A stretch of 64,000 nucleotides of DNA. Origin: Cymodocea nodosa (taxonomy: Eukaryota; Streptophyta; Magnoliopsida; Alismatales; Cymodoceaceae). Below, piece by piece: positions 9,597 to 33,506 of the stretch. Numbering within the stretch: position 1 is the first letter of the stretch; every line of letters begins with the position of its first letter. Both the position numbers and the translations under genes were made by a program. The DNA lies in the NCBI GenBank assembly GCA_036874045.1, contig CM072341.1, positions 6,150,501-6,214,500 on the forward strand, read 5' to 3'. The notes below the pieces were generated by a model that worked only from the letters and a program-made list of their open reading frames with translations, had not been told where the DNA came from and searched no databases.

Positions 9597-9618
9597 TGTC
9601 GTGTTGGGTAACCAAATA

Positions 9619-10840: not shown

Positions 10841-12626
10841 ATTGTGATTTTGTACTTTTAATGTTGTGTGTACTCTACATTTATTTTTAGAAAAAAAGAA
10901 GAAAAGAAAAATAAAATATCAATTTAGTTTGTTGATATTTGTTCTGGGAAACCAACTAGCTTGCTTGTGATCCACCAAAGGCATAGGAGCTTGGGTTCCA
11001 CACAAGACACTGATTTAACAATTTATGTTTTGTTGTTAAATATTATTTTATTATATATTCTACTTTTATTTGTGAATGAGAAGTTTTTCGAATCAAAAGT
11101 CGGAAGATATTGAAGGAGATACAAAAGAACAAGGTATGTCATTGATTACTTATCCTGAATTTATATTCAAACACAATTCGTGGAATTATTCATTAACTCA
11201 ACAAATTAAGTTCATTGAGTTAGGTGCTAAGTCAATGAAACAATATTCATGCTTGCTAATAGTTACTGTATTTATTGTAAAATCTTTTACATTAAGGACA
11301 ATGTAAAATGTAGGTATGGGGGGAGGTAATTAGATTAAAGTCAAGTAATTTTGTTAATTAGAAGAAATAAGATGATGCTTCAAATTTCTATGGAAACTAA
11401 ATTTTTTTTTATGAATTTGCTGTAACTATCCGATAATTGAAACCGTAAAATTTTTAAGAACTGTAACTACTTGAATGTTATATTTAGAATCTTATATAAG
11501 ATGCTACAAATTTTACTATTAATACAAACCTGGATATAGTATCTTATGTTTTTTCTAAATTTTATGAGTTTAATAGTTTCATGATTTTAAAAAGAAATCA
11601 AAATGCTTAACTGAAACTCAGGAAATGATCTGAAATCCTGAAAGAGCTAAAATGTTGATTTTTGGATTAAATGAAATACATATGATCAAAGATACATTTA
11701 ATTTGATTGATTAAACTTATAGAATGATTTATGTGTAAATCTTATTAAACTACAAAAAAAGTATGAGCTTATTGATATAGATTCATGTTTTCAGTAAATT
11801 ATAGAAATAGGATTATATGAGATTTTTGTTTTATTGCATCTGTATTAATGAAATACGTATATATATTGGGTTGAAAAGAAAAGAAAAAGAGGAAAAAGAA
11901 GAAGAAAAACTTTGAGAGTTTATTGATTTATTTGATCACGAGCCTTTTGTACTTGAGTTGATAGGTATGTAAGGATTGTTGACCTGAAAAAGGACTCTTT
12001 AAATCTGACAACCTAGGATCCTAATCAGATTTGGGATTATTGATTGAAAGCTCGATACATGGGTACATTAGAAAGCTCTTATATGATTCAAACTTTTCAA
12101 ATTAACTTTTAAAGTACAAATATGCATATATTGTTTTGAAAAGATAAAAGTGTTTTGTGAAATACAGATATCTTTTGAATCTAGTATATTTTTTGTTATC
12201 TAAGATTACTGAAGTATGAATCTAGATTAGACTTTTGAAGTTGTTTATTTAAGATACAATTCATTATTCTTCTTGTTTTAATCATATTGAGTTGAATTGT
12301 GTTTTGAATTGTAAGTAGTTGAAATTTATTATGGAAATCATATTGGAAAATTCAGGATAATAGATGTTTGAAAAGAAAAAAGTTGATAATATAATTACCA
12401 CCTATGTGATGCTAATATATTTTGTATAAAATTTACATATATTTAAATATATTTGCAGGTTGAAGAGGAGAAAACAATGTTAAAATAGATTACTGAAAAA
12501 TATAGAATATCTTTATAGCAATCTAATCTAGGTGTTCTGAAGAAAAAAATGAGGAATTAGTTCTAGCACTTTAGAAAGACCAACTAGTTAGATCTTAGTA
12601 GTTTGCTAAGGGACTAGCAAAATTTA
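10841..12626 (+). other. conserved 3' noncoding region (A2)
   Basis: Aligns with 6650-8380 of element A, including the 'gatcacgagccttttgtact' block (about 11934-11955) and a PPT-like tract at 11313-11327. No gene seen; the ORF at 11076-11306 is not conserved. Confidence 0.65.
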
Positions 12627-12735
12627 AGTATGGGGGAAGTGTTTAGAATGAAAAAGTGCATAATATTAATGGTTAAATGATGATTAATTGCATAATATTT
12701 AGCTTATCATATGAGAATTAAGCCATTATGTTATG
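12627..12735 (+). repeat. PPT and truncated 3' LTR of A2
   Basis: Purine tract ending 'tatgggggaag', then TGTTTAGAATGAAAAAGTGC at 12640. LTR similarity stops near 12735, where copia LTR sequence begins. Confidence 0.8.
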
Positions 12736-13644: not shown

Positions 13645-15677
13645 TGGTTGGATTTTTAGGCAGCACCAGAGAACTTATTTAGTTCCCCGGCAATAGCGCT
13701 AGAAAACTTGTCTACCTTGTTAACTTTTGTTTGTAACGTAGTTAATTTATCTTATGCTTATCATTAATTCCTTTTTAGAAGTCAACAAACCATCTTTCAC
13801 ACAAATTAGATATTAATTCCAATTTGTATTTTAACTGCAAGTGCACATTGTATATTATATTTGTGTGCAAGTACAAGTCAATCTCATAGAGAATTGAGGA
13901 AGAATTGTGTACTGTTCCATTTTTAATAATGAAATTTATATCTTCAGTAAGCACTTCGTTGAGTTATAGCTAACTCAACGAACTAACCTCATGAAATTGA
14001 AGTAACTCAACGAAGCTATCTATCCAATTTAATACTGCCATTTACAAAGGAATTCAGTCAACCATTGAGCGGTTCCACAAATTGTAAATAATATCAATTA
14101 AGCTCTTTAATGCTAGTTAATATTAAATTTATCATTCAGCAACACTAACATTCAGATATTTCAAACAGTAATTATTAAAATCTTTAAGTATCAGGAATGA
14201 TTCAATTTCGCTAAATTGTAAAACTATTTTCTATTTTCTAAATTTAAACAAACATGAAACATTCCAAACACTAACAATCATAACAATAATCACAATACAA
14301 AACAAACAATACAATACTCAAATACTAACTATAAACAAAAATAAGTTATTTTTGGTATTTTTGTTTTTATATGATCATGCAAATGGACGAAAGGTGAAAT
14401 GTAAAAGTAATCTCTATTGACAGTAAAAACTTCCGTCACTACATGCGATGTGATTACACCACTGAAAATTTAACCACTTACAATTCTGTCTCTCCTCTCT
14501 ATAGAATTGCGAGTCCAGAATTGCAAGTTGATCTCCTCTTCAGCATATTGGCATCAACCCGAAACCAAGGCTAGAAGATTTATGATCTCTTGAGATATGA
14601 GTCGGTGCTTGGTGAAAATAGCTTCCCTTCCCGCGACGCAATCACTTCTTACAATGGTTGTTAGGCATCGTGTTTGGCTCGGAATCGACCTGACATCAGG
14701 AAAGTATCCTCACAAACCTCCGATGGTTGGTGATTATGGTGGTGGTGGTGATGGTAGTGTGGAACTTCAGGGAACTTCCGTCGCTGCCTGCAGTTAGCGC
14801 GGTCCTCTTCCTCTACACACACATTGGCCACACCCTTCGTATTTTTTCTCCTTGTCTTTTATATTTCTTAGAAGTAACTGCTTCTACTTCGATGGTCGGT
14901 TAGATTTCCTTCATTCATATCAACGATGGTGATTTCTTCTTCCTTCCATGAGCGATTTCCTACGTGATACGTGTAATCGTGGTTTTCCTTCGAATGTCTT
15001 GTTTCTGTAACCGCTAAAGTGGCATATTAGAAAATAAATGGTCCGCGGAGTTACAGATAACTCAACGGACTTACTTTGTTGATTTAACTATAAAACACGT
15101 GCAATAAAGAAATAAGCCACTAACATAACGCATTACCTTAGTGTGTATTCATGTAACTCAACGCATTTAGTTATGCTAACTTAACGAGTTAAACATGTGC
15201 ATCTCACGTGATATACTAAAGCATTTAAATTCAATACGTGCATAATTCTATCTTAACAAGTACAAATATTTCGGACACTTACAAACCTAACTATCCGATG
15301 CTCAGATGCATTTCAGATAGTTACAGATAACCTTCTGAAAATCCACTTAAGTCTTGCATTGTAGTTTTAACACGTGTAATCTAAGAAATAATAAAATATT
15401 CTTTAAGCATTTAAAACATAACTGTCCAATACATTAAACATAACTCTCCGAAATAACAGAAAATTCAGATACTTAAGAATTTCACAGCCTGCAATTTACC
15501 GACAGTTTAGAAATGTACTAAATTAACATTAATTCCCTGAAATTATGCAGATTCTTTCATTAAAGCATATAACAGTGCAATTATAACATAATGGCTTAAT
15601 TCTCGTATGATAAGCTAAATATTATGCAATTAACCATCATTTAACCGTTAATATTATGCACTTTTTCATTCAAAACA
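13645..15677 (-). repeat. 3' LTR of element B
   Basis: On the minus strand it starts TGTTTTGAATG and ends ...AATCCAACCA. 2033 bp against 2024 bp for the 5' LTR, with scattered differences. TATA box at 14857-14863. It contains CTCAACG and CTATCCG dyads and PBS-like relics at its end (13679-13700). Confidence 0.92.
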
Positions 15678-15691
15678 ATTCCCCCATACTT
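15678..15691 (-). promoter_or_regulatory. polypurine tract of element B
   Basis: Minus strand 'aagtatgggggaat' abuts the LTR start. Confidence 0.88.
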
Positions 15692-17442
15692 AAATTTTGC
15701 TAGTCCCTTAGCAAACTAAGATCTAACTAATTGGTCTTTCTAAAGTACTAGATTTAATTCTTCATTTCGCTCTTCTTCAGAATAATAAATTAGATTACTA
15801 TATAGATATTCTGTATGCTTCAGTAATATGTTTTAACTTTGTTTTCTCCTCTTCAACCTGCAAATATATTTAGAATATATGTAAATTACATACAGAATAT
15901 ATTAGCATCACATAGGTGTTAATTATATTATCATTTTTTCTTTTCAGCATTTGTCATCCTGAATTTTCCAATATGATTTCCAGAATAAATTTCAAGTACA
16001 TAAAAATCAAAGCACAATCCAATTCAATATGATTAAGACAAGTAGAATAAAGAATTGTATCTCAAATAAACAACTTCAAAAGTCTATTCTAGATTCATAC
16101 TTCAGCAATTTTAGATAACAAAACATATACTCAATTCAGAAGATATCTGTATTTCACAAAACACTTGTATCTTTTCAAAACAGTATATGCATATTTGTAC
16201 TTTTAAAAGTTAATTTGACAAGCTTGAATCATACAAGAGCTTTCTAATGTACCCATGTATTGAGCTTTCAGTCAACAATCCTAGATCTGATCAGGATCTT
16301 AGGTTGCCAGATTTAAAGAGTCATTTTTAGGTCAATAATCCTTACATACCTATCTGCTTAAGTGCAAAATGTTCGTGATCAAACAAGTCAATAAACTCTC
16401 AAAATTTTTCTCTTTTTTTTTTTTTTTTTTTCTTTTTTAACGCATTATATGTATGTATTTCATTAATACAAATGCAGTAAAACACCAATCTCATATAGTC
16501 TTACTTCTATTATTTACTGAAAATATGAATCCATATCAATAAGCTCATACTTTTTTCTGTAGTTTAATAAGATCTACACATAAATCATTCTACAAGTTTA
16601 ATCAATCAAATTAAATGTATCATTGATCAAATGTATTTCCTTTAATCCAAAAATCAACATTTCAGCTCTTTCAAGATTTCAGATAATTTGTTGAGTTTCA
16701 GTTAAACATTTTGATTTCTTTTTAAAATCGTGAAACTGTTAAACTCATAAATTTCAGCAAAAACATAAGATACTATATCTAGATTTGTATAAGTAGTAAA
16801 ATTTGTAGCATCTTATATAAGATTCTAAATATAACATTCAAGTAGTTATAGTTCTTAAAAAAAAATTACAGTCTCAATTATCAATTTCCACAAAACTTTG
16901 CAGTATCATTCTAATTCCTTTAATTAACAAACTTACATGGCTGTTACTTTAATTACCTTCCCCCCCATACCTATTTTTTTTGCATTGTCCTTAGTGTAAA
17001 AGATTTGACAATAAATACAGTAATTGTAACAGGCATGAATATTGTTTCGTTGACTTAGAATCTAACTCAACGAACTTAATTCGTTGAGTTAATGAATAAC
17101 TCCATGAATTGAGTTTAAATCTAAATTCAGGATAAGTAATCAATTACATACTTTGTTTCGTTTGTATCTCCTTTTGTATATTCCGATTTTTGATTCTGAA
17201 AAACTTTTCATTCATAGATAAAAGTAGAATATATAACAAAATAACATTTAACAAATATTGATAAATCAGTGTCTTGTGTGTAACCCAGACTCCTATGCCT
17301 TTGGTGGCTCACAAGCAAGCTAGTTGGTTTCCTAGAATAGATACCAACAAATTGGATTGATATTTTTGTTTTTTTTTTTTCTAAAAATAAATGCAGACTA
17401 CACACAACATTCAAAACACAGAATCATACTTTAAGAACATGA
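15692..17442 (-). other. conserved 3' noncoding region (B)
   Basis: Counterpart of 6650-8380. It includes a PPT-like tract (16956-16973) and the conserved blocks near 16215-16390 and 17270-17345. A poly-T run lies near 16410. No gene seen. Confidence 0.65.
16956..16973 (-). promoter_or_regulatory. internal PPT-like tract (B)
   Basis: Minus strand 'aggtatgggggggaaggt', 1.3 kb upstream of the true PPT, in the same place as in A and A2. Confidence 0.55.
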
Positions 17443-18565
17443 CTAAAAAGTAGTAACAAATGGAATAAGCATGTCAGTCCAAGTAAACTTTTTTGGCATG
17501 ATTCTTCTTGCTATCAATTTTGTTTCAATGCAGTCTATTTTCCTTTTTAATTTGTAAACTTGTAGTATGTTATCAATACTAAATATAAGTGTATTTCCAT
17601 TAATGAAATGAAATGCAGAAAGAGATCTTCTTCTATTCCAAGATAGTGTGGCTGTTTCTATTTCTACATCTATTTCAATATATTCCTCTTCCCACTTCCA
17701 TTCATTTAGGTCTTTTATAATCCATATTTGAATTTTCTTCAATTCATCCCACCATCTTATTAGACATAGAGTAGGATCATCATATTCATTATACCACATT
17801 CCTAATTGAATTTTATCATATTCTGTAGAGGGTGGTTTAGCTATATCACTTGGTATAGGCAAAATTTCTATATAGTCATTATCATAACTATCTATGCTTA
17901 CTATGTATAAATCAGATCTAAATGCAACTGATATATCTGTGACTAAATATATATATCCATCAAGTATGACATGTATGCTATTAATTAAGGATTTCTGTCC
18001 TAGATATATCATAGCGTTTTCAGTCCAAGATCTATTCAGAAAATTATACACACTTAAGCATAAATCTTTATCCCAATTTCCTGTAGGTCTCCATTAATAT
18101 AATTTTTCAGGAATGGTCGAATTTTTATCAAAAAATATTAAAGCTGACCCACAATTTTCAGTTGGTACTTCATATTTATTAGGTCTTCCTATATTCCATT
18201 CTTCTCTTGTGAGAGGATTTCTAATCAAAATATCAGGTAACAGAATTGCATACCTTGGTTTGGTTCTGTATATAATTAATCCTTCATCCATCCCCATAAT
18301 ATGATCTATTCCTTTTAATGCATTGGGTGGAATTCCAGTAGTTTCATCCATATTCAGATATTCATAGCTGATTGAACTATGATTAAATGACTTCCATAAA
18401 AATCCATCTCTAATCTTAGTCATTTTTGCAGCTTGTAGTCCATGAAAATATTTTTCTCTAACACAGTCTTTAATATCTTTTGATACACAACACAATCTGC
18501 ATAGATCTTTAGCTGACAAGTTACTTAGTACTTCCCTTTGTGTGTCTAGCGGACAAGAATTCCAT
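17443..18565 (-). pseudogene. captured F-box/FBA-like gene (element B copy)
   Basis: ATG at 18565-18563 aligns with the start in A, but a 5-bp deletion just inside it shifts the frame. The frame matching A resumes at about 18519: LSAKDLCRLCCVSKDIKDCV is the second half of the F-box. It continues through NPLTREEWNIGRP, a TAA at 18094-18096 (Tyr in A), VILDGYIYLVTDI and DDPTLCLIRWWDELKK to TAG 17443-17445. It is clearly homologous to A throughout, with many conservative replacements, and occupies the same site between intron 2 and the 3' noncoding region. Confidence 0.75.
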
Positions 18566-18576
18566 CAATTGTGATT

Positions 18577-18745
18577 CTGTATAACATAAACAAAAATTTA
18601 GCAGAGACAAAAATTAACATAACTACTTCACACCCTCATGAAGTTAGGTCATAACTCAACGGATTAAGTTCATTGAGTTAAGTAATAACTCTACGATACT
18701 ATTAACCATAAGTAAACTTACATTTTTTTTTTTTTTTCTACTTAC
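18577..18745 (-). other. intron 2 (B)
   Basis: Minus-strand donor GTAAGTAG (18745) and acceptor GTTATACAG (18577). It contains a CTCAACGGA dyad at about 18653-18700. Confidence 0.55.
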
Positions 18746-18778
18746 TATATTATACATAGTTACTTCAGTTATACTGCT

Positions 18779-20190
18779 TCATTCAACTACCCTCCTAGAG
18801 GAGGTATCAATTTCATTAACAGTTCTGCTAATAGGGTTAGGTACTGCTTGCATTGGCAATCCTCCAGTAGGTCTAACTTCTATTGATTCTTTCTATCTAG
18901 GGGGTATATTTCTATTTATACTTTGACTTTGAATTGCAGCATTTCCAAATACAAAATCTAGATGATTGTTTAATTGTTGAATTATCTTTTCTAATTTCTC
19001 TATTCTAGATCCTTGTTCAATTAATGCTTCATAACTTATATTCTTGTCATTTATATTTTCTTCTCCATGGAAATTGTTGTTTCTCCAAGATAAATTCAGG
19101 TGATTTCTCCAATTAGGGTTATATGAATTTCCAAAGTTATCTTTCTGGTTTCTAGCATAAATAATATCTAGATCATTAATGTTTGCATTCTTTTCTGATA
19201 GTTTTTGATTTAATGATAACTCTTCTATTTTCTTTGTTAATTTAGTTAATTTCACTTCCAACATAGTGCTTGAATCTATTTCATGCATTCCCCTTGGCAA
19301 TATTCTTTTATCTGCAATAGCTTCAGTTGAGTTCTCCCACTATGTAGTTCTTTTTGCAAAATTTTCTAAGTATGCCCATGCTTCTTCACTACTCAATTTT
19401 AAAAATCTATTCTGACAAGTAGATTCTAATAAAGATTTTGTTGAAACATCTATGCCTTCATAAATTATACCTATTAATTGTGCTTTACTCATTGCATGAT
19501 GCGAACATTGAGTCAGTAAATCTTTAAATCTTTCAAAATATTTCCAAAATGATTCTTCCTATTTTTGGCTACACATTAATATTTCCTTTTTCTTTTTAAT
19601 CATTTGATGTGTTGGATAATATTTTTTCAGAAAAACAGAGCAAAATTCAGTCCATGTAGAAATTGAATTAGGCAACAAAGTATATAACCATCTCTTAGCT
19701 GTGTCTTTTAAAGCAAAATGGATATATCTAAGTTTAATAGCATCTATACTCATATTCGGCATTTTCATCATTTGATAAACTTTGTTAAATTCTCTAAGGA
19801 AATAATAGGCATCCTCTCTTTCTAATCCATGAAATTGTGGCAATTGACTAATATAATTAGATTTCAGTTCAAACATATTTCCCTCAAAGTTTGGCAATCG
19901 AATGCATGAAGGTTCATCAACTAATTCAGGGTATAGAATTTCCCCTAATGGTTTTTCTACTAGAGCAGCCATATCTTCATTCTCTTTTAAAGAAAGGTTT
20001 GCTATACCTCTAAGGATTTCGTTAAAGTCCAATTCAGAAAATGTTTTAGTATGCTTCTATGTTAAATACTCCTGGGTAGGTGTTCTTACTAATCGTTTAG
20101 TGCTAGGAGAACGAGTCCATGTGCTTATAAACTCTTAGCATATAGTAAAACAGCAGAAGATTAATTACATACCAGTCCAAAGCTTTCTAT
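18779..20190 (-). pseudogene. gag: spliced gag gene of element B
   Basis: Gag aligned with A across its whole length (LPQFHGLEREDAYYFLREF, AKRWLYTL, YNPNWRNH and a coiled coil), ending TGA 18779-18781. Exon 1 is in phase but its start codon position reads ATA (20190-20188) where A has ATG. Three in-frame TAGs (19559-19561, 19340-19342, 18893-18895) stand at positions that are Gln in A or expected as Gln. It has no tandem duplication. Intron 1 spans 20172-20057. Confidence 0.85.
20057..20172 (-). other. intron 1 of gag unit (B)
   Basis: Donor GTATGTAATTAATC at 20172, acceptor TTTAACATAG at 20057. Splicing preserves the phase seen in A. Confidence 0.65.
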
Positions 20191-20305
20191 TCAATAAATA
20201 GTTGTTGACGAATGAAGTTGAATTAGCTGCTTCTCCTTCCAATTCCCCAATGAATTTTCTTTTCTCTCAAAAGTGTTGGTAACTAGTAAATAACATTTTG
20301 TTCTA

Positions 20306-20313
20306 TATTTATA
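20306..20313 (-). promoter_or_regulatory. TATA box of internal gag promoter (B)
   Basis: Minus strand GCATTATAAATATAG. A good plant TATA consensus about 115 bp before the exon 1 start-codon position. Confidence 0.55.
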
Positions 20314-20449
20314 ATGCGCGTCCATAAAGCAAATAAATCTCGTTGCAAGAATGTGTCTTGTGACGTGTAGTGTGGTTCCTACTTTTCTGGATACATGTGC
20401 CACTTCTAATTTCAAATTTCAGTAACCGCTAAACCCACGAAGTTTCGTT

Positions 20450-20600
20450 CGTGGCTAAAAGAATAACCGTTTAGCTTAATCCACGAACTAACCTCATTGA
20501 GTTACAGATAACTCAACGGAGTGACCTTATATTATATTACTAACCTCGTGGAGTTAAGGTTAACTTAACGGACTTACATCGTTGAGTTAACACTTGGCAA
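20450..20600 (-). promoter_or_regulatory. dyad cluster of internal gag promoter (B)
   Basis: Several CTCAACGGA / CCGTTGAGT half-sites in both orientations, in the same arrangement as at 3240-3425. Confidence 0.55.
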
Positions 20601-20786
20601 CCTCTAAGTTTACTCCTTGTAAATATTTTTCTACTCTTCTACATTTTTCCAACTTAAATAAAGTTAAATACATGTCATTAATGTAGCATTCTAATTAAAA
20701 CTCATTTAAATCTAAACATTATATAAATTTACAACTTAATTAGATATTTTTCATACAAATATATACAAGTAGACAAACAATACAAT

Positions 20787-23015
20787 TTAGTCTCTTCTCC
20801 TAAGTTCATCTACTTCCTTCTAGAGTTTATCTACTTATTGCTCTAATTGGTTAATCCTTTCTACAGTTCTTGTAATTCCTCTAGAGGGTTCAACAATCTC
20901 TACAACTACATAATTTCTGTACTCTTTCACTGAAATGATTCTTGATCTGATCCTTTTGGATGCCCATTTAGTGAAATCGATACAATCCACCATCAATAGT
21001 GGAATCAGATCTCCATAAAACAATTTCTTCTTCATTGTTTTCAGCTTGGAGATAAAAACTACAAACCAATTTATTTGAATTCTATTTACAACTACATATG
21101 TGGCCCACTTGACAAATTGACTCAGTTCTATATCATGGCCTTGTCGTTGGTAGACATTCTTAATTAGAATGTTTGCTATCATGTGTGTTGTACCATTTAA
21201 CTGCTTTAGTCTATTTAATAACGACACACTAGGATTGATAGCTAAATAATCCTTGATTTCCTCTTCTGTCCACTCAACGGTAGTTGTGCTTTCCAAAATT
21301 TCTTTCCCTTCATTTTTCAATCCTAAAATGTTGTGGAGAAGCTCTAGTGTTATTTGTACATCAACTTCCTCCACGTTGGAAATTAATCCTCCTTCTTCTC
21401 TTAAGTTTGCATAAAAGCAGGGCACTAGATTCTCATATACTACATGCCCTCTTTCTTGAGAAATAAACTTCAATAGACCTTGGAATTCAAATAATTCTTT
21501 GATTTCTTGCATTCCGTCCCAATTTACAAGTCTACTGTAAAAGATAGTATAACCCCTAATCTCTTGGTATTTGTCATAAGCTTCCTGACTCCAAAAATGT
21601 ACTTCATTTAAAACTATTGCTTCAGAAGGATCAGCAATATGCATTTGTTGCTCTTAAGGGGTTTGTTCTTAAATTTCCTCTTCCAAATGCTGAACTTGTA
21701 CTTGCTGAAAATGCTCCACAGATTCTAGCATTTTTGCTTCTACTTTTTTCTATGGTGGTGAGCCAGTAGAACTCTCCACTCTGTCTTCAATTTTTTCCAT
21801 AAATTGCTGAAGATTTTCTTGCTCTTTAGTGGAATCTGTTGAGTCTTCTCTTTCCATTTATACTTGTTTAGCTTCTTGTTCATTATTTTCTTTTTCTTCT
21901 TCCTCCTGACTACCAATCTGCATTGTCACCATTTTTTCTGATTCTGTGGTAGATTGGGATGGAGTTCCGGGCAAATCAATTTCTACCCTAATTTTAGTTT
22001 CTTCTATTTGTATAGGCTGCAGACTAGTTTCAGCCTACTTTTCTTCTCCTCTTTACTTTTGCTGCTGCTCCTCCTTAGAATCAGATAGTAGGTTTACAAA
22101 AATAGGCCCTACAGGCCCTATTGACATTTGTCTTTCAGATTTAATCTCCTCTTGAGATTTAGACACTATCTCTTTTCCTTTCCTTTTTCTAATTAATTGT
22201 GTCTGGTCTTCCTCTTCCTCGTCTGAAAGTAAATCCACAAAAATAGGCTCTGCATGCCTTTAAGCCATAGGTATTGGCTCTTCCTATTTAACTCTTTCAA
22301 TAATTACTGGTCTCGAAGGACCAACTTCATCTCCTTTTGCAGCAAGTCTAGCAGTAGCTTCTTGATGTTGTTCCACTTTGATTTTATATTGGGCTTTCAA
22401 CTTTTCTGCAGCCCTCTTTTTGTAAAGTGCATTGAATATTAGGTGTGCTTTAGCCACTATCAAATCTTCTTATTCTCCTTGGTTTTTCCCAACTCGAACC
22501 AGTTCTTCAAATTCTCTTAATTCTTCTTTGTTTGAAGGCCCCATAACTACCACCCTTTCTAATGGTTTAGGAGGTGGATTTGAAGGTCCTGGCTGCTATT
22601 CCACAGGAACATGTCTTTCAGTAGTCGGCTCCTCCTATTCTTCCTTTTCTTTCCTTTGTTGCTCCCGTCTAATTTCTCCCCTTGCACAACCAACAATGTT
22701 CCTTTTGAACCATAGTTGAGACTTACATTGGATTAGTTTTAGGGCAACTTCATTGTTTGGCCTGATTTTTCTCTCTTTGCATACAACAATTTCCGTAGCA
22801 ACCTTTATTCTTGTTTCCATTATTTGAGGTATTTGTATACCCAAATCTACTAAAACTCTTCTCTAATTGAAAAGTTCAGATTCTAGCTTTTGTAGTTCTT
22901 TTTCTCTTGTCGTATTCCTGATTTTCTGCCTCGTGTGCCATTCTTCCAAGTCTTTATGAAATTCTGAAGTGTCTCCTGCCTTTTTCCAAAACTTAGGTGT
23001 CATCTTCCTCATCAT
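20787..23015 (-). pseudogene. env-like ORF with plant-transposon-type domain (B)
   Basis: ATG at 23015, TAA at 20787-20789, about 740 codons. The N-terminal part (KFWKKAGDTSEFHKDLEEW, IPQIMETRIKVATE, ALKLIQCKSQLWFKRN) is basic and helical. A Glu-rich low-complexity middle with repeated 'PIFVNLLSDSEEE'-like units follows. The C-terminal third (21644-20835) is an uninterrupted 269-codon domain with LFEFQGLLKFIS, LVPCFYANLRE, LLHNILGLKNEGKE and NILIKNVYQRQGHDIE, then a coiled coil. I count about 14 internal stops, all TAG or TAA. No transmembrane helix or signal peptide is evident, so 'env-like' refers to position only. Confidence 0.75.
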
Positions 23016-23174
23016 GGAGTTATGCAACGGAACGGAGTCGCTCTGATCTCTACTATTCTAAGTTCTAAATGATTCTACGGATAATGCCCCCAAACCCTAA
23101 GTTTAAGTATAAATAAGCCCTAAGTTTAGGTAGGTAATTGGGTCATTTCCCATACAAAACTCTCACTTTCTCAT

Positions 23175-23330
23175 CCATGGAATTATGGTTAACTCCATGG
23201 ACTAAGTCCGTGGACTTAACTACACTACTCCGTTGAGTTATAGTTAACTCAACGGGGTAAGTTCATTAACTAATCCTAGACTCAACAGAGTAAGTTCGTT
23301 GAGTTAAGCGTAACTCAACAAACTTCCCGT
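23175..23330 (-). repeat. CTCAACGGA dyads upstream of env-like ORF (B)
   Basis: Repeated 'gttaactcaacgggg', 'ccgttgagtta' and 'ccatggactaagtccgtgg' units form short inverted repeats. Confidence 0.7.
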
Positions 23331-23379
23331 AAAGTTATATCTAATAAAAATACTTAAGATAATAATTTTTCTTCGATCA

Positions 23380-23640
23380 AGACCAAAGAATTTTCGATCT
23401 AACCACTCTTACTTTTTTCATATTTTAAAAATTCTTCTATCAAACCAATATGTTCCTCGGTTGAACCGAAATTAAATATTTTCTTTCTTTCTTCATTTTT
23501 TTTTTACCAGTTGAACCGATACTATGCTTTGGTAAAATCGACGTTTTTACTAAATAATATATAAAAAAAATTTATGTTTTTATGTTTCAGTCAAACCAAT
23601 GGATCCTATCGGTTGAACCGTAACAATTTTTTAAATAAGT
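23380..23640 (-). repeat. ACCGA/TCGGT dyad array (B)
   Basis: Diverged copies of the ACCGAAGCATAGTATCGGTT-type unit between the integrase stop and the env-like leader. Confidence 0.7.
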
Positions 23641-23680
23641 TTTTTTTTTTTTCTCAAGATATATACTTAGAACTTTCTTA

Positions 23681-25010
23681 CTAAGTAAAGCTTGAGTAGT
23701 CTTCTACTCTTACTTCTTCTACAATTTCAAAAGAACTTTTTGGTATCTTCAAAATAGGTCTAGGTCTTTGTCCATTTACTTTAAATATATTCTGATTTTT
23801 AGGATTTTCAATCTCAATAACTCCATAGGGATAAATATTTCAAACTATGTAAGGTCCTGCCCATCTAGATCTTAATTTTCCTAGATGGTTATGGAGTCTA
23901 GTCATATAAAGATATACTTCTTGTCCTATTTTAAAGGTTTTTGGAATAATTTTCTTATCATGCTAGAACTTCATTTTCTCTTTTTCTCCTACAGTTTTTG
24001 AATAAGCTTCATTCCTAAATTCTTTTAATTCAATCAATTGTAATTTCCTATTTTCATCAGCTTGATTTAAATTAGTGTTCAGAGTTTTTAATGCCCAATA
24101 AGCTTTATGTTCAATTTCAGCTGATAAACGACAACTTTTTCCATATACTAGCCTAAAAGGTGACATACCTAAGCTTGTCTTATAAGCAGTTCTATAAGCC
24201 CAAAGTGCATCTATCAATCTATTAGCCCAATCTGTTCTAGTAGGATTTACTACGTTTTCTAAGATTAACTTAATTTATTTGTTGGCACTTTCTACTTGTC
24301 CACTTGTTTGCGGATGATATGATGTTGCAATTTTGTGGTTCACTCCATAATTCTTCATTAAGGTTTCAAAACTTCTATTATAGAAATGAGTTCCTCTATC
24401 ACTGATAATAGCTTTAGGTATTCTAAATTTGGCAATTATATTGGTTCTTATAAAATGTATTACCACTTTATTGTCATTAGTTTTTATAAGAATAGCTTCT
24501 ATCCATTTAGATACATAATCCACCTCCAATAATATATAATTAAATTGATTAGACATAGGAAATGGACCCATAAAATCTATTCCCCATACATCAAAGATTT
24601 CAACCTCAATAATAGGATTAAGAGGCATCATGTACCTCTTTGATATTCTTCCTATTTGTTGACATCTTAAACAACTTAAGCAATGTTTATGAGCATCTTT
24701 GAATAGTGTTGGCCAATAAAATCCACATTTCAGAATTTCTGCAGTAGTTTTCCTCGAACCAAAATACCCTCCACATGCTTGGTCATGATAGAAAGACAAT
24801 ATGCTTTGATATTCAGTTTCTAGAACACACCTCCTTAAAACCAGATCAGGACATTTCTTAAATAAGTATGGGTCTTCCCAATAGTAATATTTTACTCTTG
24901 AGAAAAACAATTTCTTATCCTCTCTATTCCAATCCTTAGATGTTAAACCAATAACTAAGTAATTAATTATGTCTGCATACCAAGGCATTGTGTTGATGGT
25001 CATTAACTGT
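23681..25010 (-). pseudogene. int: integrase (element B)
   Basis: The N-terminal zinc-binding region has FYHDQACGG and CLSCLRCQQ, but the second His of the HHCC set is Tyr here (GGYFG; element E has GGHFG). The DDE core shows D in GIDFMGPFP, D in ISDRGTHF and E in QVESANK. A C-terminal region with [14 protein letters not shown] and an RLHNHLGKLR segment follows, ending TAG 23681-23683. Stops lie near 24272-24274 and 23960-23962. The enzyme would insert element DNA into the genome. Confidence 0.88.
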
Positions 25011-25039
25011 TCATCAGGAAAATTATCCTTAATTTCAAT

Positions 25040-25440
25040 ATTTGATTTTTCTATTTGTAATCTTGATAAATGATCTACTACTACATTTTCACAACCTTTT
25101 TTATCTTTAATTTCTAGATCAAATTCTTGTAATAATAATATCCATCAAATCAATCTAGGTTTAGTCTCTTTCTTTACAATTAGGTGTTTTAAAGCTGAAT
25201 GATCCGCGTATACTATTACTTTAGCTCGAATCAGATATGATCTAAACTTCTCTAAGGCAAACACAACAGCTAACAGCTCTTTTTCAGTAGTTGTGTAATT
25301 AACTTGAGCATCATTTAAGGTTTTGCTTACATAATGAATCACTCTAGGAGATTTTTCTATCTTCTATCCCAACACTGCTCCTACAGCAAAATCAGATGCA
25401 TCGCACATTAATTCAAATAGATGGCTCCAATCAGGTGCTT
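25040..25440 (-). pseudogene. RNase H (element B)
   Basis: Motifs [46 protein letters not shown] and the terminal DHLSRL give the acidic residues of the gypsy RNase H fold. Stops at 25361-25363 and 25142-25144 interrupt it. Confidence 0.85.
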
Positions 25441-26240
25441 GAATTATAGGAGTTGAAATTAAGCTAGTATTAAGCTTGAAAAATGCTTCTTTGCAATTTT
25501 TATCAAAGTTGAATGGGACATCTTTTAATAGATTAGTTAAAGGTCTAGCTATTTTGCTAAAATCTTTAATAAATCTTCTATAAAATCCAGCATGTCCTAG
25601 AAATGATCTAATATCTTTTTCTGATTTAGGCTCTAGTAGATTAGAAATTACTTCTATTTTAGCTTTATCTACTTCCAACCCCTTCTTTGAAACAACATGA
25701 CCCAAGACAATTCCTTGATTAACCATGAAGTGACATTTTTCCCAATTTAGAACCAGATTTTTTTCCACACACCGTTTTAATACTTGGTCCAAATTGTTTA
25801 AACACACTTCATATGAAGTTCCATAAACAGTAAAATCATCCATAAATATTTCTAAAAAATCTTCAATCATTCTAGTGAATATGCCTTGCATACACCTTTG
25901 AAAGGTGGCTGGTGCATTGCATAATCGGAATGGCATTCTCTTAAAAGCATAAGTTCCATTAGGATAGGTGAAAGTTGTTTTCTCTTGATCCTCTAATACT
26001 ACTAGAACTTGGTTATATCTTGAATACCCGTCTAGGAAACAAAAATATTCTTTCCCTACTAATTTCTCTAGCATTTGATCTATAAAAGGTAAGGGAAAAT
26101 GATCTTTCCTAGTTACAACATTCAATTTTCTATAGTCTATACACACTATCCAGTCTGACTGAATTCTAGTAGGTATCAAGCCTGACTTTCATTCCTAATT
26201 ACTGTTAATCCAGATTTCTTGGGAACTACATGGATTGGAC
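25364..26240 (-). pseudogene. reverse transcriptase (element B)
   Basis: Athila-type RT: CIDYRKLNVVTRKDHFPLPF, QMLEKLVG, FCFLDGYSRYNQ, TTFTYPNGTYAFKRMPFRLC, NAPATFQRCM and catalytic FMDDFTVYG, then LGHVVSKKGLEVDKAKIE and FLGHAGFYRRFIKDFSKIARPLTNLL. The 271-codon core is open; a frameshift near 26185 separates it from the upstream linker. Confidence 0.92.
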
Positions 26241-26795
26241 TAACCCATGAGCTATCAGAAATCGGATAAATTATGTCATTATCTAACCATTTCACTATTT
26301 CCTTCCTAACTACTTCTTTAAGATTTGGATTTAATCTCCTCTCAGGAATTCTAATAGGTTTAGCATTCTCCTCTAAATATATATGGTGACAGCATAAAGT
26401 TGGACTTAATCTTTTATATCAGTCATAGTCCATCCTATTGCTTCTTTATACGTTTTTACTATATCTTTTAATTTAGCTATTTGATCCTCTTTTAAATCTG
26501 AAGCAATAATGATTGAACATGTTCGTTTTTCTTCTAGAAATATATAGGTTAATTCAGGAGGTAAATGTTTTAATTCTAAATGTTGCCCATCAGAAGCAAG
26601 AGCTCCTAATTGAACATCCTCATTTTCTAAATTAACTTCTTCTTGATCTCCTTCTATATTTATGCTTTCACATTCCTCTAAAGTTTCAAAATTGAGTTGC
26701 CTATTTAATTCTTCTTGAATCACATCATCTAGCATATCTCCTTCATCCTCTAAAAAGTCTATAGTATGTAAGGACGTTTCTAACTTCTCAAACTT
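26241..26795 (-). pseudogene. acidic linker between protease and RT (B)
   Basis: Contains a Glu-rich stretch and the conserved LKHLPPELTYIFLEE / TCSIIIASDLKEDQ segment that precedes RT in this lineage. Stops and a frameshift occur at both ends. Confidence 0.7.
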
Positions 26796-27320
26796 TTATG
26801 GTTTGAAAATGTTTAATTGAGTATCCTCATTGCCATATGATAACTTCATTACTCCACTTGTACAATTTATAACCACCCCTGATGTTGCTAAAAATGGTCT
26901 TCCCAAAATTAAAGATGTATCATTATTTTTATGCTTAATTTGTTGGGAATCCAAAATTACAATATCAATAGGATATATAAAGTTTTTGATTTTAAATAAG
27001 ACATCCTCTATTTTTCCTCTAAGGTATCTTATACTTCTATCAACTAATTGAATAACCGTACTAGTAGGAGTTAAGCCTTCTAATCCTAAGGATGCAAATA
27101 TATCACTTGGCATAACATTTATACTAGCACCTAAGTCTATTAAGGTTCTTTCTAGAATGGTATTTTCTATGGTGCATGATATAACAAGGATTCCAGGATC
27201 AGATAACTTTTGAGGAATTTGTGGTAGAAATAAGGAACTACTTTGCTTAGCTAAAAAGATTTTCTTTAAAACTTTTCGCTCTCTTTTCTTAGGTACACCA
27301 ATCCTTAAGAAATTTAGCAC
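26796..27320 (-). pseudogene. aspartic protease (element B)
   Basis: Retropepsin-like domain with DLGASINVMPSDIFASLGL (active-site Asp), SIRYLRGKIEDVL and LILGRPFLATSG. Preceded by the KLSDPGILVISC segment typical of the Athila protease. Confidence 0.88.
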
Positions 27321-28332
27321 AATGTGGCATTGTCTGTAATAAGTCTAACAAAGGAATGTTCACTTGTACTTTTTCAAAAATTTCTCTAATTTTTTCTTGT
27401 TTTTCAGGAAATGTTTGTTGTAATCTTTCAAGATAGGGTGCTAATGATTGTGATTTAAAAGATTCTTTTTCTTTCATTTGATTTGTTTGATCATTCTTAG
27501 TCTCATTTTTTGATTCAAACTTTTCATCATTGATTTCTATATTTTCAGATATTATATTTTCATTATCATTTTGATTTGTATTCTTACCCATCTTTATATT
27601 ACTTTCTTTTTGAATTCTTGGTGGTATATCAGTTCCAGATCTTAGTGTTATATATACATCTTCCAGATTTTCATTACTCTCATGATGTTCTTGTATATTA
27701 TTTTCGTGATTATGATCTTCAATTGTTTTTAGTTTTAAAGTACATTCTTTAAATTCTATTGCATTGGTATTCTCTTTTGTCTGTATATCTTGCAAATTAT
27801 GCAAATCTTTAACATTATAATTTTCATTTGTGTTATCCTGTTGCATAACTTGTAATTTCATTGTATATTCGTCCAATGCTTTTAGTTTTCTTTCTAGATC
27901 ATCTAATCTCATTGCATTCAATTTTTGATCAATTTTTATTATGGTTTTTTTAGTTTCGTAAATGATATCAATTTTAGGTTCTGAATATGCTTCCTTATAG
28001 TTTAATTGGTTGACTTCTTGTTGTTGACATATAAAGTGTTCTAATTTATCCATGTTTTGCTCTATACTACACTCCAATCTGTCATACCTATCCTAAACTT
28101 CCGTGTCTCTCAACATATTACACATTCTATACTAACCATCAGTTGGGTAAACTATAGGATTCTCATTCTTGGCTCTATTATATTGAAGATAATTCATTTG
28201 TTGTTCATGTGATCTAACCATCTACAAACGTCTCAGTTTAAATCAATCAGAAATGTCGTGACCTTCAAAATTGCAGAATTCACATATGCTAACTACAGGT
28301 TTCAGAAATCTTTGAGCATAAGCATATGCCAT
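27289..28332 (-). pseudogene. zinc-knuckle ORF opening the internal region (B)
   Basis: ATG at 28332-28330, about 80 bp after the PBS. The first ~45 residues carry a CX2CX4HX4C nucleocapsid-type knuckle (CEFC..EGHDISDC in C; the B copy reads the same region with a stop). A long charged linker then leads into the SLAPYLERLQQTFPEKQEKIREIF segment before protease. In other Athila elements a capsid domain would precede this; here none is present between PBS and knuckle. Confidence 0.75.
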
Positions 28333-28414
28333 ATTCTCAATTATAGAAGAAAACACACAACACCCCTCTTGCTATTAAAACAAAACAGCACTCACAATTG
28401 CTTAGCTACTCAAT

Positions 28415-28432
28415 TCCCCGGCAACGGTGCCA
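28415..28432 (-). promoter_or_regulatory. primer binding site, tRNA-Asp type (B)
   Basis: Minus strand TGGCACCGTTGCCGGGGA, 7 bp from the LTR end. This is the usual Athila/gypsy PBS with one change (TGGCGCC to TGGCACC). Confidence 0.85.
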
Positions 28433-28439
28433 AAAAAAT

Positions 28440-30463
28440 TGGTTGGATTTTTAGGCGGCACTAGAGAACTTATTTAGTTCCCCGGCAACGGCACTAGAAA
28501 ACTTGTCTGCCTTGTTAACTTCTGTTTGTAACGTAGTTAATTTATCTTATGCTTATCATTAATTCCTTTTTAGAAGTCAACAAACCATCTTTCACACAAA
28601 TTAGATATTAATTCCAATTTGTATTTTAACTACAAGTGCACAATGTATATTGTATTTGTGTGCAAGTACAGGTCGATCCCATACAGAATTGAGGAAGAAT
28701 TGTGTACTGTTCCATTTTTAATAATGAAATTTATACCTTCAATAAGCACTTCCTTGAGTTATAGTTAACTCAACGAACTAACCTCGTGAAATTGAAGTAA
28801 CTCAACGAAGGTATCTATCCAATTTAATACTGCCATTTACAAAGGAATTTGGTCAACCATTGAGCGGTTCCACAGATTGTAAATAACATCAATTAAGCTC
28901 TTTAATGCTAGTTAATATTAAATTTATCATTCAACAACACTAACATTCAGATATTTCAAATAGTAACCATTAAAATCTTTAAGTATCAGGAACGATTCAA
29001 TTTTACTAAACTGTAAAACTATTTTCTATTTTCTAAATTTAAACAAACATGAAACATTCCAAACACTAACAATCGTAACAATAATCACGATACAAAATAA
29101 ACAATACAACACTCAAATACTAACTATAAACACAGATAAGTTGTTTTTGGTATTTTTGTTTTTATATGATCATGCAAATGGATGAAAGGTGAAATGTAAA
29201 AGTAATCTCTATTGACAGTAAAAACTTCCGTCACTACATGCGACGCGATTATACCACTGAAAATTTAGCCACTTACAATTATGTCTCTTCTCCCTATAAA
29301 ATCACGAGTCCAGAATTGCAAGTTGATCTCCTCTTCAGCATACTGGCATCAACCCGAAACCAAGGCTAGAAGCTTTACGATCTCTTGAGATATGAGTCGG
29401 TGCTTGGAGAAAATGGCTTCCCTTCCCACGATGCGATCACTCCTCACAGTGGTTGTCAAGCACCATGTTTGGCTCGAAATCGACCCGACATCAGGAAAGT
29501 ATCCTCACAGACCTCCAATGGTTGGTAATTATGGTGATGGTAGTGTGGAACTTCAGGGAACTTCCGTCGCTGCCTGTAGTTAGCGCGGTCCTCCTCCTCT
29601 ACACACACACTAGCCACACCCTTCGTATTTTTTCTCCTTGTCTTTTATATTTCTTAGTAGTAACTGCTTCTACTTCGATCATCGGTTGGATTTCCTTCAT
29701 TCATATCAACGATGATGATTTCTTCTTCCTTCCACGAGCGATTTCCTACGTGATACGTGCAATCGTGGTTTTCCTTCGAATGTCTTGTTTCTATAATTGC
29801 TATAGTGGCATATTAGAAAATAAATGGTCCGTGGAGTTATAGATAACTCAACGGATTTACTTCATTGATTTAACTATAAAACACGTGTAATAAAGAAATA
29901 AGTCGCTAACATAACGCATTACCTTAGTGTGTATTCATGTAACTCAATGCGTTCAGTTATACTAACTTAACGAGTTAAACATGTGCATCTCACGTGATAT
30001 ACTAAAGCATTTAAATTCAATACGTGCATAATTCTATCTTAACAAGTTCAAATATTTCAGACACTTACGAACCTAACTATCCAATGCTTAGATGCATTTC
30101 GGATAGTTACAGATAACCTTCCGAAAATCTACTTAAGTTATGCATTGTAGTTTCAACACATGTAATCTAGGAAATAATAAAATATTCTTTAAGCATTTAA
30201 AACATAACTGTCCAGTTCATTAAACATAACTCTCCAAAATAACAGAAAATTCGGATACTTAAGAATTTCATAGCCTGCAATTTACCGACAGTTCAGAAAT
30301 GTACTAAATTAACATTAATTCCTTGAAATTATGCAGATTCTCTCGTTAAAGCATATAATAGTGCAATTATAACATAATGACTTAATTCTCGTATGATAAG
30401 CTAAATATTATGCAATTAACCATCATTTAACCGTTAATATTATACACTTTTTCATTCTAAACA
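28440..30463 (-). repeat. 5' LTR of element B
   Basis: 2024 bp, minus strand TGTTTAGAATG...AATCCAACCA. TATA box at 29643-29649. A PBS-like relic (28477-28496) lies inside its 3' end. Confidence 0.92.
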
Positions 30464-30468
30464 AAGAT
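30464..30468. repeat. target site duplication of element B (right)
   Basis: AAGAT, identical to 13640-13644. Confidence 0.9.
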
Positions 30469-32740
30469 CTTGACTTTAATCTTTTCTATGGCCAAGGTGT
30501 AATATCTGTTTGACTTGTCACAATTCTTAAAAGTATATCACCATAAAATAATTTACTTTATAAGTGTAAAATATGATAAACAAAAATATCATACCAGTTC
30601 ACCTATATATGGTTAATCAACGCATATGTAGCATAAAGACAACATCTACCAACCTTTACTCTATGACCAAACCTCTGAAACATTGAAGCATGCAATATCT
30701 TTGCAATAAAATGTGTTGGCCATTTAAATCATTTAGTAATCTCATTTGATTGTTGGCAATTAGATCTTTGGCTAAACTTTTATTATCTCATCCCAATTGA
30801 TAGACTTGCTTTCTTTCTGATAATTTAACTACATTTTTCAGTCCAAGTACTTGATAAAGTATTTCTAGAGTTAAATATATATCTAATTCTTATATATTTG
30901 AAACAATAATACCATCTTCTATTGTTAAGTTTAAGTAAAAGCAACTTACAATTTTTGGTATAATAAGATGGCCTAGTTGTTGTGAAAGTAGAGTCAACAA
31001 GCCTTGAAATTCAAACATCTCTCTTACATTTGCCATCCCTTCAAACTTAACTGGTCTTGAATATAAAACTGTAAAAATTTTATATGTTTGAAATTTTTCA
31101 TAATAGAATCTATTTCTAAACCATAATAATGTATTTTCTTCTAAATTCTATTCAAGATTAGGTATTTTCCTGTCATGATTTTCTAACCTGAGACTTGTTT
31201 CAATATTGTCAATAGCATCATCATATTTAGATCTGTCAAAACTAGAGAAGTTTCTATCAAAACTTGTAAAAATGTCTGAAGTATCTGGTATGATCATATG
31301 AATAATATGTTGGACTGCCTTTGTTTGATCTTCTTCAAACATATCAGCAACTGACATTTCTATATCATTATCAACAGTCAATGTAGTATGCTCTGTATCA
31401 GCAACATTTACTTCTATAAGTTATCTGCTAAACAACTGTCTCTGTATAAAAGAATGTTTTATATCTGTCTGTGTAATAGAGTCATTTTGTAATTCTGAAA
31501 TTTCTATAAATGAGATATTAGCAATGTTATATTCTATTTGTAACTTTGTATTTTCCTGATTATATACAATTGTCAACAAATATACTGTATACTGTAACAG
31601 ACATAACCAGATGTATAAAATGTAGTATATGCAACTATACCAAAAATTAAAAGTCTCTATCCGAGATACAATAAGAGGAAAAATATCTGTGCATTCCTCT
31701 TCAGATGATTATCTTCAAAATTCATTCAGTGTCTATGTCATCAAAAATGTTATCATAATTGATATCATCTGTATATATATCATCAAAATTTCCCACATTT
31801 TCTATTTCCGTAGGAAAAGAATGGTGGCTTGCAGCGTCATATAAAAAACTGTCCATTATATTGAAAGTAACATTATGAACTAATGTGACACAATACCTTA
31901 AAGTATATGCTTGTAATCCAATATTTGTCACATCTGTTGGGATTCTTGAAACAAAATCCTATCCAGCTTGTGCAATGGAACATAGTTTTTCATTTTTCAA
32001 AGATTCTTCTCTTTGCTGCAATATACCTTGTACACTTGTAGTTAGTCCAAAATATTCTATTGTCTTCTTCTTTTTTCGATTATATATCTATAGTGTCTCA
32101 AGTTGTTCAGGAGGTTCAAATGTTTACTTTATTTCTCCTATTAAAGGCACCTATGGTCTTGATGTTCCTTCACCATATTACCTAGGTTGCAATAATGGAA
32201 TATAGATTTTTAAGCTCTCAACCTTAGCAATTTGCAATTTATAAACATTTTTTCCTTCACTTCGAATGCCCATTTTCCAAATGGTAGTTTTCTATTCAGT
32301 AATAAATTTCTGTATGTTATCTAAAATAGCCAAGGGAAAATAATGTTGGGAATACAAAGATTCTAATTCCCTATTGGCATTTTCTATCATGGGTTCCCAT
32401 TTCTTTCAGTAATAAGTAATAGACTGTATCGATTTTTCAAGTACTTGTCTAGAACTTGTAACAACCTCAGGGTTAGGTTATAATGTTCTTTTCCATATTT
32501 GTAACACAAAAAGTTCAGACTATTTTAGTCTAAACTGTGTCTCAGCATAGTTTCTAATAAATTTCCAATAGAAATTTTTCTCGTCTTGAATAGCTTTTTG
32601 AATTTCATGTAGTACTTCATTTGAAAAAGTATACCTAGTGTAAATGTTGTTGATCTCACATTCTATTTTCTACAGTACCATCTCTCTTTTCTGCACTTTT
32701 GTCATTCTACCATGTTCTCTTCCACATCCTAACATTGTCG
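30469..32740 (-). pseudogene. env-like ORF of copia element F
   Basis: Lies downstream of copia RT/RNase H on the minus strand. From about 32738 it reads an N-terminal helical region (VLHEIQKAIQDEKNF, LYSQHYFPLAILDN), then an acidic middle, then a domain at about 31100-30480 with AKILHASMFQRFGHRVKVG, CCLYATYALIN, VNWYDIF and KLFYGDI. The motif order matches the Athila env-like domain (NILIKNVYQR.GHDIE, NRIQINWF, KLFYGDLIP). Many stops. The C-terminus continues at 13644. Confidence 0.7.
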
Positions 32741-32844
32741 ATTAATCTTCACTATTCACTGTAGAACTTAGTGGAAGTAAAGATTGTGAAACTAGGGTTT
32801 TACCAAGGTAGAAACACGAAAGGTTGTCAGTAAAACATTTATAA

Positions 32845-33280
32845 CTCTTCGAGTTTATAAACAGATTCAATCATTGAAATCATAAATATAAGATTCGTTA
32901 CTGATAAATAACTTGAATGCTTACAATAATTGTACGAGTTTTACAACCTATAAAAGCAGAAGACTTAGCATAACTATTCGTGTAAAGAAAATAACTACTA
33001 GTTAAGTAAAAATGAGAAACTCAAAGACTTATGATAACTATTCAAGTTTTATGAGTAGTAAAGCACATAACTATATGACAAACTAGAATAGTTATTGTCA
33101 TATATTAAGTCTGTCATAAAAATATAATAATATTAAGTTAACTGTTCGAGTTTCTCAAACAGATATACTAAAAAGTTAAAGACTTAAGCATAACTGTTCG
33201 AGTTTCTTAAAAGGATAAATTATAATAATGTAAATCAAAAACTCAGAGAGAAACCTAACTATTCGAGTTTGTAGAAGAAT
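32845..33280. repeat. AACT..TCGAGTT palindrome array
   Basis: Motifs such as 'taactcttcgagttt', 'taactgttcgagttt' and 'aactattcgagttt' recur at least five times just upstream of the copia env-like ORF. The position is equivalent to the dyads of the Athila-like family. Confidence 0.65.
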
Positions 33281-33506
33281 AAAACATAACTATACAAAAA
33301 ACTTGGATGGTTATTTATCTATATACGAGATAAAATAGCAAATATCAAGTGAAATACATAACTGTATGTTAAACGAATTGAATGAGTCTAACTTTTTATC
33401 AGTATAAGTTCCAGAATATTTGCACTTGATTAAATTTACTATTTTTTTCTTTGTTTGCTCCTCCTACATAAATGTAGTAAAGAGAAACTATGATGTATTT
33501 AATATT

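Follow-up and report, generated by a model that had tools for sequence, protein, structure and literature searches.

The 64,000-nucleotide stretch of Cymodocea nodosa DNA analysed here (GenBank assembly GCA_036874045.1, contig CM072341.1, positions 6,150,501 to 6,214,500; hereafter the window) is a nest of plant long terminal repeat (LTR) retrotransposons, in which self-comparison and boundary reading distinguish five copies, A to E, of one family. Most likely Athila-like, this is probably a Ty3/gypsy family whose members replicate with their genes in permuted order, the capsid being encoded by a separate gene near the 3' end. The permuted order recurs in separate insertions, and genes at both its 5' and 3' ends are under selection in the more diverged pairs of copies. 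A gag-first order and the fusion of capsid with nucleocapsid are treated as standard, and an excess of Gag is usually obtained through stops, frameshifts or the splicing of one transcript. If our reading is true, packaging and reverse transcription can proceed without a gag-first order, and the dose of capsid could vary independently of Pol.

Copy B is the complete member of the family. A preliminary description of this DNA had claimed as much, with an AAGAT duplication as its bounds, and comparison of the LTRs together with boundary reading bears this out: the two LTRs of about 2 kb are 93.5% identical over 2040 columns, and a perfect AAGAT stands on both sides of the element. The primer binding site (PBS), whose core is matched 5 times across the window at three or fewer mismatches (0.11 expected), is one that we take to be of the tRNA-Asp type. 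A tRNA-Asp PBS is described for the Athila lineage in the available part of an earlier report (PMC1142308). At the other end, a sequence resembling a polypurine tract (PPT), AAGTATGGGGGA, read by eye, adjoins the 3' LTR. That is, B is LTR-bounded with a PBS and a PPT, as in Ty3/gypsy elements (Metaviridae). A second PBS-like sequence lies near the end of each B LTR (28479-28492, exact, in the 5' LTR; 13684-13697, with two mismatches, in the 3' LTR).

From PBS to PPT, B runs through an open reading frame (ORF) with a CCHC zinc knuckle, protease, reverse transcriptase (RT), RNase H/integrase, an env-like ORF, a capsid-type gag (PF03732) and an F-box gene. Its Pfam matches (protease, below cutoff, then RVT_1, RT_RNaseH_2, Integrase_H2C2 and rve) follow the Ty3/gypsy order of protease, RT, RNase H and integrase (PR-RT-RH-INT), and the integrase tail down to 23684 was read by eye. 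Two earlier statements, that the zinc-knuckle ORF stands alone between PBS and protease and that a capsid-type gag lies beyond integrase and the env-like ORF, both hold: the former ORF begins with an ATG at 28332, 82 bases past the PBS, and the latter with an ATG at 19972 and matches the PF03732 ORF of copy A. A gap of about 80 bases between the PBS and the knuckle ORF leaves no room for a capsid. This 5' ORF opens with MAYAYAQRFLKPVVSICEFC, followed by a CX2CX4HX4C knuckle that is intact in C and E and has lost its last Cys in B; the charged region behind it in B looks coiled-coil-like by eye. In C and E the knuckle frame continues, apart from stops, into the protease, and B is frame-shifted there.

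The remaining copies repeat this order as far as they extend. The knuckle ORF lies 80-130 bases past the PBS or PBS-like site in all three copies that reach there (B, C and E), and three-frame reading and phmmer recover the PBS-zinc knuckle-protease succession in C and E, as had been reported. The capsid-type gag is 3' of the env-like ORF in each of the three copies holding both (A, B and C) and is present in all four copies reaching the region (A, B, C and D); the F-box gene follows it in three of these four (A, B and D, not C). The integrase-env-gag order previously given for A and C stands in its env-gag part, and integrase is represented there only by its C-terminal tail. The gag pieces of B and C match the gag of A at E=1.1e-81 and 2.7e-78, and those of D match too. 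In a six-frame search of the whole window (ten family queries, pieces of at least 20 residues, E <=0.01), neither of the two gag queries had a match anywhere but at the 3' gag of A, B, C or D; the knuckle query, being out of frame, was uninformative. In A, B and C the 3' gag pieces contain no recognisable CCHC motif.

All of the copies examined are broken, with stops in the gag of B and of A and in the 5' ORFs of C and E (Table 1). Copy D is a fourth 3' copy, absent from the preliminary description, and its gag is interrupted by copy A. Copy C is internally deleted, most of RNase H/integrase being gone (along B, its match breaks off at 25367 and continues at 23928), and is without an F-box; its LTRs are 90.9% identical (over 1644). 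With its 3' LTR truncated at 48369, C offers no target duplication to check. Copy E is cut at 61353 by another LTR. The gag of copy A starts with a 219-base (72-codon) tandem duplication (3888-4322, 99.5% identical), in frame by a repeated MAA start.

Table 1. Features of the window, with positions counted from its first letter
Feature	Position	Strand	Description
Copy A	1 to ~9620	+	3' part; begins at integrase tail; lies inside gag of copy D
Copy A 3' gag	3812..5311	+	PF03732 E=1.9e-19; one in-frame stop after 4951
Copy A F-box gene	5480..6649	+	two pieces of one frame; PF00646 E=9.5e-8; FBA_1 E=0.0079, below cutoff
Copy A 3' LTR	8394..9622	+	right end ~9620; self-comparison, boundary reading
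Copy D	9623..12734	+	end of gag, F-box without its start, 3' non-coding region, start of LTR; self-comparison, phmmer, alignment
Copy D F-box gene	10034-10910	+	start missing
Copy B	13645-30463	-	complete
B 3' LTR	13645..15681	-	self-comparison, boundary reading
B F-box gene	17443..18564	-	one in-frame stop; PF00646 E=7.4e-9 in 18564-18097
B capsid-type gag	18893..19972	-	in-frame stops at codons 138 and 211; matches PF03732 ORF of copy A
B candidate internal promoter and leader	20155..20313	-	TATA-like TATAAATATAG from 20313 down; donor-like GTATGTAATTAATCTTCT from 20172 down
B env-like ORF, in pieces	20838..23057	-	acidic repeats IFVDLxSxEEE, basic clusters, PF20167-like C-terminal part
B RNase H and integrase, in pieces	23684..25363	-	PF17921 E=2.4e-10 and PF00665 E=7.2e-13 in 25144-24275
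B reverse transcriptase	25364..26188	-	PF00078 E=6.1e-24
B protease-like stretch	26796..27344	-	PF13650 E=1.3e-4, 23.0 bits, below cutoff 24.3
B 5' ORF	27289..28332	-	with stops; CCHC zinc knuckle near N-terminus, then long charged region; three-frame reading of B, C, E
B primer binding site	28415..28432	-	14-base core
B 5' LTR	28439..30463	-	starts TGTTTAGAATG; AAGAT duplication outside
Older Ty1/copia element H	30464..35769	-	RVT_2 E=4.9e-15 in 35730-35470, then 3' ORF
Copy C	35770..48369	+	5' LTR, knuckle ORF, protease, RT, integrase tail, env-like ORF, gag, truncated 3' LTR
Copy E	55388..61352	+	5' LTR, PBS-like site 57628, knuckle ORF, protease, RT, start of RNase H/integrase

The flanks of B and C show no similarity to each other outside the LTRs (E 1e-10, 150 bases), and the LTRs of the two copies differ by about 15-20%. 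On the simplest reading, the stretch 35769-30464 between them is one older element, H. Copy C borders the RT of H on its one readable side, and B is inserted in the 3' ORF of H, as judged by matching its flanks to a relative, element F: similarity of the left flank to F ends near F position 295 (tblastx E=9e-28), and that of the right flank starts again near F 322-334 (with filters off, tblastx E=0.005 and blastn E=7e-7, in part over Gln-rich repeats). B and C apparently sit, then, in different genes of H. Because their flanks differ, RNA of this order has been reverse transcribed and integrated more than once, and the order did not come about by rearranging a single copy already in place. Related elements are packed densely here, a setting in which assemblies can fail, but an artefact, whether a mis-assembly or one inserted copy that was rearranged and then duplicated along with its surroundings, is hardly credible given LTRs this far apart, flanks so unlike and the two further insertions added by A and D. 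H also holds a broken ORF (32740-31725, minus strand) between the end of RNase H and the 3' ORF, the scanned piece of which has no Pfam match.

Selection was gauged between copies. Plain pairwise ratios of nonsynonymous to synonymous substitution rates (dN/dS) are a first pass, and their p-values are not relied on. For gag they are 0.18 (A-B), 0.28 (A-C) and 0.49 and 0.40 (B-C), and for its C-terminal part 0.18 (B-D) and 0.26 (C-D). Towards the 5' end they are 0.21 and 0.26 for the knuckle, 0.31-0.66 for the remainder of its ORF, 0.51 and 0.59 for protease, 0.22 and 0.42 for RT and 0.65 for RNase H/integrase; the env-like ORF gives 0.18 and 0.20, and the F-box gene 0.27-0.64. In non-coding stretches, copy-to-copy substitutions are fastest for C-to-T and G-to-A changes in CG and CHG contexts, as expected of methylated plant repeats, and this excess biases simple dN/dS tests. 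A neutral null was simulated with context-dependent rates fitted to five non-coding pairs, giving neutral medians of 0.58-0.73 for the coding rows. It covers 19 coding comparisons (omitting two first-part F-box comparisons with D, the knuckle ORF of C-E, RNase H/integrase of B-E and protease of B-C), and we report how many of 1000 simulations fall at or under the observed dN/dS. For gag these are 0 (A-B), 2 (A-C), 1 (B-D) and 14 (C-D); for the knuckle 6 (E-B) and 4 (E-C); for the remainder of the knuckle ORF 3 (B-E); for RT 0 (B-E); for the env-like ORF 0 and 0; and for the second part of the F-box gene 0 in both A-B and B-D. A codon-phase test, from which the gag A-D row was dropped for a two-base offset, is clear for gag in A-B (p=0.007). 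Purifying selection on the 3' gag, the knuckle, RT, the env-like ORF and the second part of the F-box gene is supported in the more diverged pairs.

Synonymous divergence (dS), which carries the same bias as dN/dS, is 0.15-0.24 for gag among A, B and C (0.24-0.34 with D), 0.13-0.27 for RT and 0.20-0.32 for the knuckle ORF, and reaches 0.52-0.62 in the env-like block. Likewise, B and C are 89-95% identical from the 5' ORF to RT and 90-94% in gag, and mostly 70-88% in the env-like block (93% in its first window). This patchwork indicates that modules are shuffled by recombination between relatives, a route by which gag could have moved. Recombination between Athila families, as well as pol-less families that keep gag under purifying selection, is reported from Arabidopsis (PMC2410132, in the part available). 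Such shuffling, with an env-like block older between copies than a gag of dS at most 0.34, would also suit a semi-autonomous family that lost its 5' capsid, uses the particles of canonical relatives in trans and acquired the 3' gag as an accessory (a competitor or helper capsid). In this vein, 7 of 63 Retand clusters are listed without GAG, plus 2 without GAG and AP, in the accessible text of another study (PMC11963269). Yet the 3' gag is the sole capsid-type ORF found in the window, occurs in every copy reaching its region and, in the more diverged pairs, is under constraint comparable to that on RT, and we consider a family dependent on foreign capsids unlikely. As for the split of capsid from nucleocapsid proposed earlier, the two are indeed separate ORFs at opposite ends, shared by the insertions; their derivation from one ancestral gag finds no support, the C-terminus of the 3' gag showing no homology to the knuckle ORF in what is a weak test (profiles of two to four sequences). 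Separate gag and knuckle may instead derive from duplication with complementary loss.

Candidate expression signals for a separate capsid gene appear when copies A, B and C are aligned over 681-691 bases that lead up to gag and enter it. The TATA-like TATAAATATAG of B recurs in C and has the form TATATATATG in A, and all three share an 18-base donor-like stretch, GTATGTAATTAATCTTCT, without a single difference. Counting from the start of this donor, an acceptor-like end comes after 101 bases in A, as TTGCAG, and after 116 bases in B and C, as CATAG (20057 in B); another 85 bases on, gag begins with ATG, or with ATA in C. Further 3', the interval from gag to F-box again has splice-like sites: B and C carry GTAAGT as a donor-like and TACAG as an acceptor-like site, and A has an acceptor-like end. 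Another donor-like site, GTGAGTG, stands 3' of the PBS in B (near 28399) and C. Donor- and acceptor-like calls follow the splice-site consensus, and these TATA-like and splice-like signals are candidates only. The TATA-like box and the intron-like stretch are consistent with the separate 3' transcription unit suggested earlier and make it plausible. A reading frame over the TATA-like box (20418-20194) has no codon-phase bias and was taken as non-coding.

With such an arrangement, the 5' polyprotein would carry the nucleocapsid zinc knuckle first, followed by protease, RT, RNase H and integrase, and the capsid would come from its own gene, 3' of the accessory ORF and 5' of the F-box gene. A long RNA would yield knuckle-Pol; a shorter mRNA would yield capsid and perhaps, via an alternative acceptor, the F-box protein too. 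This mRNA would either start at an internal TATA promoter and lose a small leader intron, or arise when the long RNA is spliced. The knuckle on Pol would bind genomic RNA in Gag's stead, bringing Pol into shells made of the separate capsid, and the dose of capsid would be set by transcription or splicing instead of a stop or frameshift between Gag and Pol. Going by no more than its domain and partial selection, the F-box protein could conceivably divert a host ubiquitin ligase, perhaps towards silencing factors. Our proposed working analogy is the foamy viruses, in which Pol is made without a Gag-Pol fusion and packaged via RNA; they differ in that Gag is still first and Pol is the separately expressed gene.

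Clusters of a dyad, GTTGAGTTA-N4/5-TAACTCAAC, are present in the LTRs and before the env-like ORF, gag and the F-box alike, and B and D also have one behind the F-box. When 20 simulated 64-kb sequences were searched on one strand, the pattern turned up 0-3 times. The spacer is 5 around the F-box, where pairs lie 34 bases apart in 5/5 pairs, and mostly 4 elsewhere. The sites in B are 23232-23298, 20496-20548, 18638-18672 and 17049-17083, with matching sites in A, C and D. A role as RNA hairpins was rejected: departures from the consensus are asymmetric in 94 cases and symmetric in 7, a result equalled by shuffled pairing in 170/500. Arms without co-variation favour DNA sites over RNA hairpins.

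Dyads of the LTR kind ahead of gag and F-box might be read as traces of a nested origin, in which a non-autonomous gag/F-box element inserted once behind the env-like ORF, lost its LTRs and was fixed, the 5' capsid decaying later. Gag-only plant elements of this sort are known (TR-GAG; PMC11728184, in the part available). However, with dyads masked the gag-upstream region scores 38 against the B LTR (shuffled mean 37.4), no 150-base direct or inverted repeat flanks the gag/F-box block in B, and a nested element with LTRs of its own, a possibility raised in the preliminary description, has left no detectable trace there; we regard this origin as quite improbable. A relic LTR before gag or F-box was likewise dismissed, since the similarity to the B LTR is the dyad motif and masked scores are at the shuffled level. 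More tentatively than for the permuted family itself, we suggest that it may be a stable Ty3/gypsy lineage with capsid and nucleocapsid separate at opposite ends, nucleocapsid fused to Pol, and capsid and F-box on an internal promoter, where the LTR-shared dyads before the 3' genes could let one regulator switch all units.

Several points weigh against a replicating family with a separate 3' capsid gene. Plain dN/dS overstates selection, as 21 non-coding frames gave values of 0.30-0.95, 13 of them at p <0.01. Under the fitted null, 6 of the 19 coding comparisons lie above the 5% mark: gag B-C (201 and 107 of 1000), the knuckle-ORF remainder B-C (78), protease B-E (300) and, for the F-box gene, its first part in A-B (287) and its second part in A-D (55); RT B-C is marginal at 47. 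Little can be read from the B-C pairs, in keeping with two copies that parted shortly before inserting (half of the summed LTR divergence is ~8%, near the 6-10% of the B-C gag windows). Among the control frames, 1 of 15 (B LTR pair, frame 0) fell at 0 of 300 and one more at 9 of 300, and the false-positive rate is not negligible; the LTR pair and two 3' non-coding pairs were also in the training set of the null, and the gag-upstream pairs were independent. The codon-phase test is borderline for gag A-C (0.056), RT B-E (0.055) and the knuckle ORF B-E (0.063), next to 0.065 for an LTR control. The capsid fold of gag rests on PF03732, its structure model being unusable (mean predicted local distance difference test, pLDDT, 38.0), and the 3' transcription unit, though plausible, is read from sequence signals. 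Finally, the data come from a single 64-kb window, and gag-last could be one branch of an otherwise canonical family.

The family resembles Athila, Calypso, Cyclops and Diaspora in its long LTRs, single CCHC knuckle, 3' ORF with weak PF20167 similarity and PR-RT-RH-INT order, and the Athila lineage in what is presumably a tRNA-Asp-type PBS a few bases past the LTR. Unlike Athila members as described in the texts available, which have gag before pol with capsid and knuckle in one protein, it has its capsid 3' of pol and the accessory ORF, followed by an F-box. Metaviridae carry capsid and nucleocapsid in gag and have the order gag, pol, env (PMC7879559), and a plant reference survey, in its accessible portion, also gives gag before pol for Ty3/gypsy (PMC6317226); here the knuckle is in the 5' ORF and the capsid in a separate 3' ORF. 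The same portion of that survey states that elements with unexpected domain order were discarded as likely mispredictions, so that such lineages could be systematically filtered out. Viral-contig scans returned no relatives of the family, and no gag-last element is described in the titles and abstract openings on gag position, element structure and F-box, a coverage outside which most subscription journals fall.

Known systems share parts of the arrangement. BARE1 (Ty1/copia), with its spliced gag-only RNA, is alike in the proposed principle of a separate RNA for the capsid protein and unlike in having a single ORF, only the RNA being separate (PMC3735527, as far as its available text goes). 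Grande gene23 and similar cases are 3' genes with their own promoter inside a plant LTR retrotransposon, but are antisense accessory genes, not capsids (PMC7264820, from the part at hand). TR-GAG and the pol-less Athila families also keep gag outside a gag-pol unit; they lack pol, whereas B holds gag and pol in one element.

The label 'env-like', taken over from the preliminary description, is positional only, as no transmembrane segment was detected in the ten stop-free pieces of A, B and C scanned (top 19-residue hydropathy 1.22). The ORF matches PF20167 at E=2.2e-4 (B), 3e-4 (A) and 0.015 (C), all below the curated cutoff, and a structure model of the domain was left unused (mean pLDDT 33.1). 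Its IFVDLxSxEEE repeats lie at 22259-22056 (B), 1232-1844 (A) and 42512-42703 (C), and we take these stretches to resemble tandem SUMO-interacting motifs. A 3' ORF of a sunflower Athila element is described, in the available part of one study, as partially similar to the PF20167 family and as having predicted nuclear localisation signals (PMC11728184). Related ORFs occur in H (31540-30500, minus strand; phmmer E=1.3e-19) and in F (63999-63437, minus strand; phmmer E=6.4e-15), and a Pfam scan of these pieces gave no match. The element type of F is our judgement from the look of its PPT and LTR. Resting on H, the env-like module appears to be common to the Ty3/gypsy and Ty1/copia superfamilies.

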